Origin: Phymorhynchus buccinoides
Lineage: Eukaryota; Mollusca; Gastropoda; Neogastropoda; Raphitomidae
DNA: 64,000 nucleotides
Reading direction: 5' to 3'
Assembly: GCA_017654935.2 (NCBI GenBank)
Contig: CM065689.1
Coordinates: 61,698,606-61,762,605 of the forward strand
The notes under the pieces were generated by a model. It was not told where the DNA came from and did no database searches. It was given only the letters and a program-made list of their open reading frames with translations. Positions 25,798 to 64,000 of the stretch are shown in pieces. How positions within the stretch are numbered: the first letter of the stretch is position 1; every line of letters starts with the position of its first letter. The translations under genes and the position numbers were made by a program.

Positions 25798-25905
25798 CTC
25801 GCCCCAGGCCCAGCTACGTGCGGCAAGACAAGCAGGGCAAGGAGCAGAATGGGCAGCCTGAGCAGCCGCCCCAGGAGCCCCCCAAGAAATCAGTCATTCC
25901 CACAG
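25798..25905 (+). CDS. KIF2: Kinesin-13 (KIF2-like) exon 1 of this window (N-terminal linker)
   Basis: The acceptor is ATGAATGTGCAG at 25786-25797; the donor is CCCACAG|GTCAGT. The frame reads RPRPSYVRQDKQGKEQNGQP then EQPPQEPPKKSVIPT, and ends one base into a codon. Exon 2 starts with the two missing bases, so the join gives ...SVIPTGGRRKSN. A low-complexity, Pro/Gln/Lys-rich sequence ahead of the neck is what kinesin-13 proteins have between the N-terminal localisation domain and the neck. Sequence conservation alone is weak; the phase match and neighbours support it. Earlier exons and the start codon are not in this window or not recognised. The acceptor could instead be the CAG at 25806 or 25812. 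Confidence 0.7.
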
Positions 25906-26067
25906 GTCAGTACCAGGCAGCCTTCCTTCGTCTGCTTCTCAATGTGATGCCAGTGTGGGATTTTTTACCAGGAGCCCCCCAAGAAATCAGTCATTCCCAC
26001 AGGTCAGTGCCATGCTGCGTTCCTTCGTCTGCTTCTCAATGTGATGTCAGTGTGGGGTTTGTTCTAC
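25870..26067 (+). repeat. 98-bp tandem duplication of the exon 1 donor junction
   Basis: CCAGGAGCCCCCCAAGAAAT...CCCACAGGTCAGT is present at 25870 and again at 25968, followed both times by CTTCCTTCGTCTGCTTCTCA. The second copy carries the last ~38 nt of exon 1 and the donor site, but no full exon. Confidence 0.9.
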
Positions 26068-26081
26068 CTGTGCCTTACCTG

Positions 26082-27470
26082 ATGACCTGTGGCTTGTCCT
26101 GCCCACTTGTTGAATCAATTCATGGCCTGTGGCTTGTCCTGCCCACTTGTTGAATCAATCCATGGCCTGTGGCTTTTCCTGCCCACTTGTTGAATCAATC
26201 CATGGCCTGTGGCTTGTCCTGCCCACTTGTTGAATCAATGGATGGCCTGTGGCTTGTCCTGCCCACTTGTTGAATCAATCCATGGCCTGTGGCTTGTCCT
26301 GCCCACTTGTTGAATCAATGGATGGCCTGTGGCTTGTCCTGCCCACTTGTTGAATCAATGGATGGCCTGTGGCTTGTCCTGCCCACTTGTTGAATCAATG
26401 GATGGCCTGTGGCTTGTCCTGCCCACTTGTTGAATCAATCCATGGCCTGTGGCTTGTCCTGCCCACTTGTTGAATCAATCCATGGCCTGTGGCTTGTCCT
26501 GCCCACTTGTTGAATCAATGGATGGCCTGTGGCTTGTCCTGCCCACTTGTTGAATCAATGGATGGCCTGTGGCTTGTCCTGCCCACTTGTTGAATCAATG
26601 GATGGCCTGTGGCTTGTCCTGCCCACTTGTTGAATCAATGGATGGCCTGTGGCTTGTCCTGCCCACTTGTTGAATCAATCCATGGCCTGTGGCTTGTCCT
26701 GCCCACTTGTTGAATCAATGGATGGCCTGTGGCTTGTCCTGCCCACTTGTTGAATCAATGGATGGCCTGTGGCTTGTCCTGCCCACTTGTTGAATCAATG
26801 GATGGCCTGTGGCTTGTCCTGCCCACTTGTTGAATCAATGGATGGCCTGTGGCTTGTCCTGCCCACTTGTTGAATCAATGGATGGCCTGTGGCTTGTCCT
26901 GCCCACTTGTTGAATCAATGGATGGCCTGTGGCTTGTCCTGCCCACTTGTTGAATCAATGGATGGCCTGTGGCTTGTCCTGCCCACTTGTTGAATCAATG
27001 GATGGCCTGTGGCTTGTCCTGCCCACTTGTTGAATCAATGGATGGCCTGTGGCTTGTCCTGCCCACTTGTTGAATCAATGGATGGCCTGTGGCTTGTCCT
27101 GCCCACTTGTTGAATCAATGGATGGCCTGTGGCTTGTCCTGCCCACTTGTTGGATGGCCTGTGGCTTGTCCTGCCCACTTGTTGAATCAATGGATGGCCT
27201 GTGGCTTGTCCTGCCCACTTGTTGAATCAATGGATGGCCTGTGGCTTGTCCTGCCCACATGGCCTGTGGCTTGTCCTGCCCACTTGTTGAATCAATGGAT
27301 GGCCTGTGGCTTGTCCTGCCCACTTGTTGAATCAATGGATGGCCTGTGGCTTGTCCTGCCCACTTGTTGAATCAATGGATGGCCTGTGGCTTGTCCTGCC
27401 CACTTGTTGAATCAATCCATGGCCTGTGGCTTGTCCTGCCCACTTGTTGAATCAATGGATGGCCTGCTAC
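26082..27470 (+). repeat. 40-bp minisatellite after exon 1
   Basis: About 34 units of GGCCTGTGGCTTGTCCTGCC plus CACTTGTTGAATCAATGGAT. Two unit types differ only by GGATGG versus CCATGG at the join. CCATGG units are common at the left edge, rare in the middle, and return once at the right end. Two truncated units lie near 27150 and 27260. Both strands have open frames in this region because the 40-bp unit lacks stops in some frames. Confidence 0.95.
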
Positions 27471-27537
27471 ATGAAATATTGGTTAACACATAAAAAATCT
27501 GTTTCAGCCGATTTTTGTGTGTTAACCAATATTTCAT
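27470..27537. repeat. Hairpin with 20-bp perfect arms
   Basis: ATGAAATATTGGTTAACACA (27471-27490) pairs with its exact reverse complement at 27517-27536, with partial pairing continuing into the loop (AAAAAATC/GATTTTT). No coding or RNA-gene context; possibly a fold-back relic. Confidence 0.9.
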
Positions 27538-27663
27538 GCTATCCGGTTTCAACGGACAAAACCCCTCTTTATTATTACTTGATGCTTAGCACAAATAATG
27601 GTTAATGCACACACAAAATCTTTGTCCCCTGAATTTCGTGTTAAGAGTACTCCACTGTACCTA

Positions 27664-61645: not shown

Positions 61646-61649
61646 TTAA

Positions 61650-61859
61650 CTGAGTTTGCCTGGATTTGCCTTTCTGTGACAAAAATATGATACTTCCATA
61701 AAAGTAATTTAGAAAGATGGATTCAGTGTACTCCTTGTACTCCACTGTAAGTTTTGGATTTGAAGGTCTCTAAGAATGGCACCCCGACGACCAAGCCGGT
61801 CAAGGGTGGAGTGAGTGGGTGAGAAGTATGAACTGCTAAAGATGACCACGATTTGGGGA
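61650..61859. other. Unique intron before the exon 8 junction repeats
   Basis: Nothing recognisable. Confidence 0.5.
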
Positions 61860-62072
61860 TACCACAAGCCGCACAATGATCTGCATTGACTGGGAGTACA
61901 GTTGTATGGTTGATGCCCCCCCGGTGGGGATACCACAAGCCCACAATGATCTGCATTGACTGGGAGTACAGTGGTATGGTTGATGTTGCCAGGTGTTTGA
62001 CTTGCTGAATGGCAAGGCGCGCCTCAGGGTGTTGGAGGACTGGGAGTACAGTGGTATGGTTGATGTTGCCAG
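61860..62072 (+). repeat. ~80-bp tandem duplication of the exon 8 acceptor junction
   Basis: TGGTATGGTTGATGTTGCCAG then GT(G/A)TTTGACTTGCTGAATGG to GGGTGTTGGAGGAC occurs at 61973-62040 and again at the true exon. The first copy holds the acceptor and ~48 nt of exon 8, then returns to intron. Shorter intron-only copies (GATCTGCATTGACTGGGAGT) lie at 61878 and 61950. Confidence 0.92.
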
Positions 62073-62215
62073 GTATTTGACTTGCTGAATGGCAAGGCGC
62101 GCCTCAGGGTGTTGGAGGACCACAAGCAGCAGGTGCAGGTGGTGGGGCTGAGGGAGGAAGCCGTCACCAACGTTGACGACGTGCTTCAGCTCATCCACCA
62201 CGGAAACCACGTCAG
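62073..62215 (+). CDS. KIF2: Kinesin-13 (KIF2-like) exon 8
   Basis: The acceptor is GATGTTGCCAG; the donor is CACGTCAG|GTACAG. It reads [47 protein letters not shown] and ends two bases into a codon, continuing exon 7's ...EIYSGK. Human KIF2A has [20 protein letters not shown] and VQVVGL at this point. It is 143 nt. The next exon, which should hold the switch I region (NxxSSRSH), is beyond the window. Acceptor and donor junctions are both duplicated next to it. Confidence 0.97.
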
Positions 62216-64000
62216 GTACAGGACACACCTCCTACATCACACACAGCAGACATCCACCATGGAAACCACAGGACACACCTCCTACATCACACACAGCAGA
62301 CATCCACCATGGACACCACAGAACACACCTCCTACATCACACACAGCAGACATCCACCATGGAAACCACAGGATACACCTCCTACATCACACACAGCAGA
62401 CATCCACCATGGAAACCATGTCAGGAACAGGACACACCTCCTACATCACACACAGCAGACATCCACCATGGAAACCACGTTGGGTACAGGACACACCTCC
62501 TACATCACACACAGCAGACATCCACCATGGAAACCACGTCAGGTACAGGACACACCTCCTACATCACACACAGCAGACATCCACCATGGAAACCATGTCA
62601 GGTACAGGACACACCTCCTACATCACACACAGCAGACATCCACCATGGAAACCACGTCAGGTACAGGACACACCTCATACATCACACACAGCAGACATCC
62701 ACCATGGAAACCACGTCAGGTACAGGACACACCTCATACATCACACACAGCAGACATCCACCATGGAAACCACGTCAGGTACAGGACACACCTCCTACAT
62801 CACACACAGCAGACATCGACCACGGAAACCACGTCAGGTACAGGACACACCTACATCACACACAGCAGACATCCACCATGGAAACCACAGAACACACCTC
62901 CTACATCACACACAGCAGACATCCACCATGGAAACCACAGGACACACCTCCTACATCACACACAGCAGACATCCACCATGGAAACCATGTCAGGTACAGG
63001 ACACACCTCCTACATCACACACAGCAGACATCCACCATGGAAACCACAGGACACACCTCATACATCACACACAGCAGACATCCACCATGGAAACCACGTC
63101 AGGTACAGAACACACCACATGCATCACACACAGCAGACATCCAACATGGAAACCACAGGACACATCACATACATCACACACAGCAGACATCCACCATGGA
63201 AACCACAGGACACACCTCCTACATCACACACAGCAGACATCCACCATGGAAACCACGTCAGGTACAGAACACACCACATGCATCACACACAGCAGACATC
63301 CACCATGGAAACCACGTCAGGTACAGAACACACCACATGCATCACACACAGCAGACATCCACCATGGAAACCACGTCAGGTACAGAACACACCACATACA
63401 TCACACACAGCAGACATCCACCATGGAAACCACAGGACACACCACATACATCACACACAGCAGACATCCACCATGGAAACCACGTCGGGTACAGAACACA
63501 CCACATGCATCACACACAACAGACATCCACCATGGAAACCACAGGACACACCTCCTACATCACACACAGCAGACATCCACCATGGAAACCACGTCGGGTA
63601 CAGAACACACCACATGCATCACACACAACAGACATCCACCATGGAAACCACAGGACACACCACATACATCACACACAGCAGACATCCACCATGGAAACCA
63701 CGTCGGGTACAGAACACACCACATGCATCACACACAGCAGACATCCACCATGGAAACCACAGGAGACACCTCCTACATCACACACAGCAGACATCCACCA
63801 TGGAAACCACGTCAGGTACAGGAGACACCTCCTACATCACACACAGCAGACATCCACCATGGAAACCACAGGACACACCACATACATCACACACAGCAGA
63901 CATCCACCATGGAAACCACAGGACACACCTCCTACATCACACACAGCAGACATCCACCATGGAAACCACAGGATACACCTCCTACATCACACACATCAGA
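62216..64000 (+). repeat. 59/50-bp array of the exon 8 donor junction, running off the window
   Basis: About 32 units of CATCCACCATGGAAACCACG-TCAG|GTACAGGACACACC then ACATCACACACAGCAGA. The first part is exon 8's end (CATCCACCACGGAAACCACGTCAG) plus the donor. Units lacking CGTCAGGTA (so without a donor) alternate with complete ones. The array continues past the window end. Confidence 0.94.

Follow-up and report, generated by a model that had tools for sequence, protein, structure and literature searches.

Minisatellite units at exon-intron boundaries in KIF2A and other kinesin and myosin genes of Phymorhynchus buccinoides

The founding units of minisatellites cluster within about 60 bp of real splice donors and acceptors, both in the KIF2A gene (kinesin-13) and in a sample of other kinesin and myosin exons, and do not cluster at splice-like intronic sequence. 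About 1 in 5 junctions of the sampled exons has an array. The explanation we favor, with somewhat more confidence than doubt, is that the tandem duplications that found minisatellites arise preferentially across exon-intron boundaries, followed by ordinary minisatellite growth. Such a junction-centered founding bias probably extends genome-wide.

Arrays along the KIF2A gene

The window is a stretch of 64,000 nucleotides whose host gene is KIF2A; the closest named relatives are those of Batillaria, Pomacea and Littorina (84%). Exon numbers follow the original prediction, and coordinates are those of the whole window, continued beyond its ends where needed. The gap-free gene contig covers 11819-107106 (95 kb), and TRF arrays make up 57% of it, as they do 58% of the non-N bases across 284 kb. 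Near-identical partial copies of the gene (96-99%) are separated by N gaps, and the window contains such copies. C-terminal KIF2A exons occur on the opposite strand. A KIF2A paralog lies at C2:55500928-55552688. A listing of the 25 longest of 1063 ORFs in the flanks identified no further gene. Exons were located by tblastn and arrays by TRF, as follows.

1..11318, + strand: near-identical partial gene copy (1-10040 versus 41942-51973, 98.5% identity), holding both exon 4 arrays (acceptor 4983-5964, donor 6028-8026) and an exon 5 array that runs from 10620 into the N gap
11319..11818, no strand: 500-N assembly gap, reached where the exon 5 array of that copy ends
25798..25905, + strand: exon 1 (AARPRPSYVRQDKQG...), found with gastropod KIF2A P0121/P0122 at 57-64% identity; acceptor CAG|C, donor ACAG|GTCAGT
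25871..26060, + strand: exon 1 donor repeat, 97 bp x2, spanning the junction
28718..31695, + strand: 34-bp array ending within 4 bp of exon 2, abutting and not spanning
31699..31855, + strand: exon 2 (GGRRKSNVVKEIEKIKQKRDERR...), from tblastn and splice sites
31856..34232, + strand: exon 2 donor array, 51-bp and 67-71-bp units (TRF rows 31871-34232)
41791..41894, + strand: exon 3 (34 residues), without a spanning array
from 41909: 77-bp array, 14 bp downstream of exon 3
46919..47900, + strand: exon 4 acceptor array, 106 bp x9.3, AG kept in the aligned copies
47845..48007, + strand: exon 4 (55 residues), from tblastn and splice sites
47964..49965, + strand: exon 4 donor array, 59 bp x34
52413..56903, + strand: exon 5 acceptor array, 87 bp x about 52; the unit holds CAG|GTACACAGCCAAACCTCTTGTAGAA (YTAKPLVE)
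57806..57872, + strand: exon 6 (TMGGDFGSKGQQDCAKGIYCLA)
57862..59039, + strand: exon 6 donor array, 31 bp x38, ACAG|GTGAGG
59372..59460, + strand: exon 7, without a spanning array
61854..62120, + strand: exon 8 acceptor repeat, 70- and 80-bp units
62073..62215, + strand: exon 8 (47 residues)
62192..64000, + strand, continuing to 67307 beyond the window: exon 8 donor array, about 50 bp

Beyond the window, TRF finds donor arrays at two later KIF2A exons, one of 80 bp at 91556 and one of 33-43 bp at 99951. On the 5' side, the exon TVEWFEKGETKGKEV has an array of 136-bp units, running from -80000 with over 22 copies. The exon after it has an acceptor array of 110 bp from -71876 to -71288. Spanning arrays occur at 8 of the 24 junctions located on the 95-kb contig, a count that leaves out exon 5 and the 5' exons located on other contigs; six of the eight lie inside the window, where seven located exons supply 14 junctions. 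TRF reports no spanning array for exons 3 and 7 or for the later exons H, I and J, so the claim of the original prediction that almost every exon is affected was too strong. Six further KIF2A arrays come to 25 bp or less from a junction but do not cross it by TRF.

The junction-spanning arrays that had been predicted for this gene are confirmed by TRF at exons 1, 4, 5, 6 and 8, including the two repeats predicted at two copies each, namely the exon 1 donor (97 bp x2) and the exon 8 acceptor (70-80 bp). The exon 2 donor array, also predicted to span, is one of the six that stop short by TRF, although its 51-bp units do hold the exon end followed by the donor (TTCAAGGCCATGATTCA|GTGAGA); the first copy is diverged, and TRF begins after it, at 31871.

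The repeats are head-to-tail, with highly similar units of about 10-150 bp by TRF and wrap-around alignment, as is characteristic of minisatellites; wrap-around alignment identity is 0.79-0.99 in eight arrays. Splice dinucleotides are kept about as well as the remaining unit in seven of the eight arrays examined. The exon 4 donor array, for example, preserves ACAG|GTAATG in most copies (G 0.94, T 1.00). Dinucleotides in the exon 5 array are kept slightly less well (0.962 versus 0.982), and the donor GT has been lost from the propagating unit at exon 8. In the two near-identical gene copies, the exon 4 donor array has almost equal length by TRF, 1999 and 2002 bp.

A constant polarity, with donor arrays downstream and acceptor arrays upstream of the intact exon, had been offered as a clue to mechanism. 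It instead follows from geometry whenever a segment containing a boundary is duplicated in tandem: the outermost copy keeps the intact exon because the unduplicated remainder of the exon stays attached to it, first in the array for donors and last for acceptors. Exon 5 breaks the expectation that an intact exon forms the last member of an acceptor array, for searches of the 284 kb and of the whole assembly, the latter with 39 of 39 first-look candidates scored, did not recover its P-loop half.

Frequency of arrays at junctions and inside introns

The sample consists of 37 other kinesin and myosin exons with 74 junctions, from about 29 gene loci in two families. Exons were drawn from ranked genome searches, and this ranking might favor exons with partial copies. 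Selection used score and an open frame of at most 200 aa, with near-duplicates removed, before the sequence was seen, but the rule was not strictly followed. Rule-fitting hits left out are C3:60745478 (which adjoins a sampled exon), C18:43726112, C3:34303687, C3:5851569 and C2:16663435. L002 was dropped as part of the same gene as L001; the L038 match contains a stop, and the eight earliest loci were unfiltered, L007 among them with two stops. Splice sites were set by hand for the acceptors of L033, L035, L007 (1626, later 1634) and L054 and for the donor of L043, and some KIF2A acceptor positions were one base off in computations.

Arrays make up so much of the sequence (57% of the contig) that each was collapsed to one founding unit before testing. 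Array coverage was rejected as the null expectation, since no amount of growth lets an array that began outside an exon take in the exon edge. In Monte Carlo placement of founding units, 7 of the 24 KIF2A junctions remained spanned after collapse against 1.75 expected, a count reached in 5 of 2000 simulations. The sample gave 15 of 74 against 7.30 expected (1 of 2000), and the two together 22 of 98 against 8.85 (0 of 2000). Compared instead with points 100-675 bp into the same introns, again with collapsed units, the 15/74 of the sample stands against 47/1435. For KIF2A the contrast with nearby intronic points was weaker (29.2% versus 10.9%; the bootstrapped difference was zero or negative in 108 of 5000 draws). 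Under strict criteria (score at least 400, at least 3 copies) the sample drops to 7/74 versus 1.9%. A TRF-free test, based on copies of the 36-mer at each junction, gave 8/24 for KIF2A and 17/74 for the sample, versus weighted backgrounds of 9.0% and 7.3%.

The comparison of exon edges with other intron positions that the original prediction called for thus finds an excess in both KIF2A and the sampled exons. It also shows that the phenomenon, first described as a property of one gene, is shared with other kinesin and myosin genes, where 12 of the 37 exons have junction arrays. A bias in which duplications are tolerated, the alternative raised at the outset, predicts no junction excess, because intron interiors should tolerate duplications at least as well; an excess is observed.

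Coverage as a function of distance peaks no farther than about 60 bp from the exon edge and then returns to background. On the intron side of the 37 sampled exons, coverage is 21% in the first 10 bp, rises to 26% at 10-30 bp and is still 17% at 30-60 bp, before falling to 3.9% at 60-100 bp, 2.8% at 100-150 bp and 3-6% out to 800 bp. KIF2A reaches 44% at 10-30 bp. In a comparison covering 12 KIF2A exons and the first 25 sampled exons, real junctions scored 18/74, decoy donors and acceptors 5-9%, and intron binned by GC content (30 to 60%) only 4-8%. Neither GC content nor splice-motif sequence is sufficient as the cause, as decoys and GC-matched intron lack the excess.

The rate falls with search rank, from 6 of 14 junctions in the top kinesin exons to 9 of 60 in the lower-ranked exons. 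When the Monte Carlo test conditional on arrays per locus was restricted to the latter 60, it was not significant (9 versus 5.84; 148 of 2000). Against intronic points the same 60 gave 15.0% versus 4.1%, and the bootstrapped difference was zero or negative in 36 of 5000 draws. A genome-wide search for a repeated perfect donor word returned 230 matches (125+105) versus 1155 (589+566) for the reversed control and so no tandem-donor excess; these counts, of which about 100 rows were listed, mainly reflect how large the arrays are and how common the word is, and were not treated as a junction test. The donor-word search does not support the junction reading.

Origin of the junction arrays

Units differ from exon to exon, and all 31 of the genome-wide matches to the exon 4 donor unit fall at the KIF2A locus and its near copy. 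That unit, the one searched in this way, is therefore no dispersed satellite or transposon-borne repeat, and the earlier view that several junctions were amplified independently, from no single satellite, holds up. Among paralogous pairs, two of four differ in array presence and two of four have no array. The myosin exons L033/L034 (83% identical) and L036/L038 (80%) each have a junction array in one member that is absent in the other. In the kinesin exons L006/L008 each of the four edges has an array, and the donor units of the two exons differ. Such differences between paralogous sequences suggest recurrent origins of junction arrays.

Divergence is no greater in junction arrays than in arrays of the intron interior (within-array match 93% versus 91%, n=23 and 75), and longer survival was rejected as a cause of the excess on this ground. 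Units at junctions are longer (104 versus 48 bp), mostly through size-biased sampling, for which the expected median is about 85 (P 0.058), and the difference was set aside.

Under the favored explanation, founding tandem duplications of about 30-160 bp would be placed preferentially across exon-intron boundaries. Slippage and unequal exchange would then enlarge the arrays, as in other minisatellite-rich parts of these introns, and purifying selection would remove duplications inside exons. In the weakest part of this explanation, the bias itself might be mutational and stem from DNA breakage or fork slippage where exons end in germline chromatin that is being transcribed, conceivably at nucleosome edges or through RNA-DNA hybrids.

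The strongest competitor, which we nevertheless regard as unlikely, makes whole exons prone to duplication, with events inside the exon eliminated and those overhanging its edge surviving, such that the junction peak is a survivor effect. Junction units do lean toward the exon (mean exon share 0.58; 17 of 23 above 0.5), and KIF2A exons are richer in GC than unique intron of the same gene (0.54 versus 0.43). Yet the peak is highest 10-30 bp into the intron, intron of similar GC is little enriched, and abutting, non-overlapping arrays are in excess in KIF2A (6 versus 1.17 expected), although in the sample the excess is not clear (6 versus 3.84; 342 of 2000 simulations reach it).

Less likely still is the absence of any junction preference, with a minisatellite-saturated genome striking junctions by chance and geometry supplying the polarity. 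The array load, the conditional test on lower-ranked exons and the lack of excess among tandem donor words are all in keeping with it. The Monte Carlo, intronic-point, decoy and GC, TRF-free and distance-profile results all speak against it, and array load is the wrong yardstick for the reason given above.

An artefact of sampling or assembly, in which the ranking is biased toward partially copied exons and the assembly cannot be trusted near arrays, fits the near-identical copies across N gaps, the missing P-loop exon, the C-terminal exons on the other strand and the fall in rate with rank. We judge it improbable: the copies within arrays have diverged and are not alike from locus to locus, there are no gaps in the gene contig, and the lower-ranked exons still exceed their intronic points. 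Selection of the arrays for a role in splicing, for example as U1/U2AF platforms that aid exon definition in very long introns, is very improbable, for despite the preserved splice dinucleotides the exon 8 donor unit lacks a donor, paralogs differ in or lack arrays, and splicing at a distal site would change the reading frame because most unit lengths (59, 31, 136, 106, 97 and 50 bp; 87 and 51 are exceptions) are not multiples of 3.

A broader reading of preferential founding at boundaries is put forward tentatively, at somewhat less than even confidence. Splice junctions may be germline hot spots of tandem duplication in this lineage, with some step linked to exon edges in transcribed DNA repeatedly founding minisatellites; about one-fifth of all genomic boundaries may carry an array of their own boundary, and the spliceosome may routinely pick the correct site among dozens of near-identical ones. 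If true genome-wide, the birth of tandem repeats within genes would be non-random and marked by exon edges, and one class of structural mutation would be tied to transcription, splicing or exon chromatin. Introns whose first or last part consists of tens of nearly identical versions of the true site, all in one sequence context, would also offer natural experiments in splice-site choice.

Comparison with known systems

In the AGGT model of intron gain, a segment inside an exon that contains AGGT is duplicated, and an intron forms between the copies. The snail units that were read consist of exon plus intron with a single kind of splice site, are not exon-internal AGGT duplications, and imply no new intron. 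The likeness to intron gain by tandem duplication (PMC4974935) is that the duplication adds splice-site sequence to a gene. Passages of PMC8599734 describe microDNA formed by microhomology-mediated end joining, short gene-derived segments from DNA breakage whose abundant members have exonic sequence; the snail arrays resemble these as short gene segments with exonic sequence, but microDNA is extrachromosomal and those passages name no germline tandem arrays at splice junctions. Intronic VNTRs such as TERT VNTR6-1 (PMC11830802) likewise have many copies of units of tens of bp within an intron, although the opening of that abstract describes no unit containing a splice junction. For Conus introns, the passages of PMC3862624 mention only simple repeats. 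Among the open-licence papers listed in the literature searches, titles and abstract openings do not name a minisatellite excess at splice junctions.

The closest parallel is the variable internal tandem repeats (ITRs) at exon-intron boundaries in human segmental duplications, for which passages of PMC2812944 give units averaging 30 bp x4 in recently duplicated genes, with 27 intron modifications. In both cases minisatellite units lie at the exon-intron boundaries of genes, and the KIF2A units overlap the boundary as ITR units do. Unlike the human ITRs as described there, the snail units are 31-163 bp long, form arrays of up to several kb, occur in conserved kinesin and myosin genes, and show a measured excess over intron background.

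Arrays at the splice junctions of the kinesin-13 gene

The gene lies on contig C10 of a 2.12 Gb genome. Because the best named relatives of its joined exon translation are the KIF2A proteins of the caenogastropods Batillaria, Pomacea and Littorina (84% identity), it is, as judged from sequence, a kinesin-13 (KIF2A) of a caenogastropod-like animal. The exons were located with tblastn, and their splice sites by inspecting the sequence. Tandem arrays with units of at least 10 bp make up 57.2% of the gap-free contig at 11819-107106, where TRF reports 66. An array was taken to span a junction if it reached at least 5 bp to each side, and 8 of the 24 junctions located on this contig are spanned. 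The exon 2 donor is a ninth case by reading: the exon ends inside 51-bp units, and the TRF row begins past a diverged first copy, hence its absence from the eight. The original prediction of arrays across several junctions of this gene is thus borne out, and this local claim stands firmly. The junctions spanned by TRF, and three further exons, are as follows.

Exon 1: donor
Exon 4: acceptor and donor
Exon 6: donor
Exon 8: acceptor and donor
91556 and 99951, beyond the window: two later donors
5' exon TVEWFEKGETKGKEV, outside the gap-free contig: 136-bp array
Next exon after TVEWFEKGETKGKEV, outside the gap-free contig: acceptor array, 110 bp
Exon at -45317: spanning array absent

In the TRF rows, six arrays (the exon 2 donor array among them) stop 25 bp or less from a junction and do not cross it, against 1.17 by random placement.

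The same polarity had been noted at every array. If the end e2 of an exon e1e2 and the start i1 of an intron i1i2 are duplicated together, the result is e1(e2i1)(e2i1)i2. Donor arrays always begin with the intact exon, and acceptor arrays always end with it. The pattern follows for any boundary duplication but says nothing of mechanism, because tandem duplication across the boundary itself fixes the outer position of the exon. An array founded outside the exon never comes to include the exon edge, whatever its growth. Arrays were therefore collapsed to one founding unit for counting, and the test quantity is how often a collapsed unit falls across a junction. The gene then loses the donor at 99951 and retains 7 of 24 junctions, against a mean of 1.75 by random placement (reached in 5 of 2000 runs). 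Compared with intronic points, coverage is 29.2% vs 10.9%, and the difference was zero or negative in 108 of 5000 bootstrap replicates.

Exon 5 and the state of the assembly

The exon 5 acceptor array is present, but the expectation that an intact exon 5 closes it fails: the P-loop half of this exon (52413-57806 region) was not found in 284 kb, nor in the whole assembly, with 39 of 39 first-look candidates scored. Its sole close match there is an exon of a second KIF2A-like gene (C2:55500928-55552688, its matches spread over about 52 kb). A broken gene would account for the absence and may be the correct reading. We think, however, that the P-loop half was lost in assembly, because the remaining exons are open and their matched stretches are 82-100% identical to other snails, exon 1 excepted (57-64%).

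Partial copies of the gene, 96-99% identical, occur in direct and inverted order with N gaps between them. Window 1-11318 pairs with 41909-57200 (98.5% identity of 1-10040 to 41942-51973); others lie upstream (L009, L014, L021-L026; one beyond N gaps is 99.2% identical over 17.8 kb) and downstream (L010-L013, L015-L020, L027-L030; one beyond N gaps, inverted, is 96.4% identical over 35.7 kb). The simplest reading is that the scaffold has probably retained haplotype copies. The exons for the KIF2A C-terminus are found upstream, on the minus strand (C10:61578451-61582054), while the other exons run the opposite way, which casts doubt on order or orientation within the scaffold. Order across gaps being unreliable, the gene counts were restricted to one gap-free contig. 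With copies and gaps counted, the C10 gene extends over about 180 kb, vs about 52 kb on C2. An antisense degenerate copy of exon 3, whose peptide includes MNKK, lies upstream of the window (-5742 to -5825, in L009). Long ORFs occur at 16864-18237, 24353-25553 and 37967-38542; by eye, some look like reverse transcriptase.

Junctions of other kinesin and myosin genes

Exons of other genes were selected on score in two family searches, one for kinesin (PF00225) and one for myosin (PF00063), with a possible ranking bias of the genome search behind them. The sample holds 37 non-redundant exons from two families, about 29 gene loci by our own count from coordinates: 7 top kinesin exons (L002 dropped), 9 myosin, 9 further kinesin and 12 further myosin. 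After the first seven, an open frame of at most 200 aa with no internal stop (L038 excepted) was required and near-duplicates were skipped; five matches that passed were left out.

Fifteen of the 74 junctions are spanned, in 12 exons: one edge each in L003, L005, L033, L036, L037, L042, L048, L055 and L058, both in L006, L008 and L050. Random placement conditional on each locus's arrays gives 7.30 (15 reached in 1 of 2000 runs), and for gene and sample together, 98 junctions, 8.85 against 22 (0 of 2000). Intronic points in the same loci are covered in 47 of 1435 cases. The predicted excess over other intron positions therefore holds in the gene and in the 37 exons, but the 30 lower-ranked exons alone are not significant under conditional placement (9 of 60 vs 5.84; 148 of 2000), although against intronic points they give 15.0% vs 4.1% (difference zero or negative in 36 of 5000 bootstrap replicates). 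Abutting arrays, within 25 bp and not spanning, number 6 vs 3.84 in the sample (342 of 2000 runs reach this). A junction preference across the genome is likely.

Founding-unit coverage in the sample is 17% at 30-60 bp and 18% at 10-30 bp on the exon side, 21% within 10 bp of the junction, and 26% at 10-30 bp and 17% at 30-60 bp on the intron side; it then drops to 3.9% at 60-100 bp and 2.8% at 100-150 bp, and stays at 3-6% as far as 800 bp. The profile had a like shape with 25 exons. The gene reaches its peak, 44%, at 10-30 bp and has 9.8% at 60-100, 3.5% at 100-150 and 9-14% at 150-800 bp. For the gene plus the first 25 sampled exons, donors and acceptors are equal (9 of 37 each; in the gene alone donors lead, 5 of 12 vs 2 of 12), intronic decoys scoring at splice-site level are 5-9% covered, and intron GC bins of 30-60% are 4-8% covered, the few higher bins 0. 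Stricter TRF thresholds lower the sample counts and keep the excess (14, 11 and 7 of 74 vs 3.1, 2.1 and 1.9%). A TRF-free count of extra copies of the junction 36-mer gives 8 of 24 vs 9.0% in the gene and 17 of 74 vs 7.3% in the sample. A search for repeated donor words showed no excess over the reversed control. Some of the arrays it returned, for example C2:94922369-94923342 and C4:41905191-41906662, have units in which CCCAG|GTAAGT comes after a pyrimidine-rich tract, an acceptor and donor back to back that resemble recursive-splicing sites.

Probable founding and turnover of junction arrays

Junction units have a median length of 104 bp vs 48 bp for interior units, mostly as size-biased sampling predicts. 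Junction arrays are no older (93% match vs 91%, P 0.75). In 7 of 8 arrays the copies preserve their splice dinucleotides to much the same degree as the remaining bases of the unit; the donor is gone from the exon 8 donor unit. The exon 4 donor unit matches only its own locus and a near copy. The exon share of a unit averages 0.58 and exceeds one half in 17 of 23, a slight lean that keeps alive a rival centred on the exon body.

L006 and L008 are paralogous kinesin exons of 79% identity, and each of their four edges bears an array. The two donor units begin at different places in the exon, and their intron portions align only in 13-30 bp stretches. The two acceptor units reach similar exon depths (74 and 78 bp), so one shared old acceptor array is possible. 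In the myosin pairs L033/L034 and L036/L038 one partner has an array and the other none; in L053/L056 and L054/L059 both lack junction arrays. These comparisons suggest turnover faster than paralog divergence.

Most likely, short tandem duplications arise preferentially across exon edges. The arrays would then enlarge as any minisatellite does, and duplications that disrupt the exon would be lost. Breakage or slippage of DNA at nucleosomes on exon edges, or at hybrids linked to transcription, might cause the bias; either would suit both exon ends and the width of about 60 bp.

Among the listed matches in the open-licence literature, no report of an excess of minisatellites at splice junctions was found. 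A study of human genes in segmental duplications describes repeats at exon-intron boundaries (PMC2812944). Small circular DNAs form by end joining, and abundant ones contain exonic sequence (PMC8599734); by analogy only, they indicate that short pieces of genes can be cut out and ligated.
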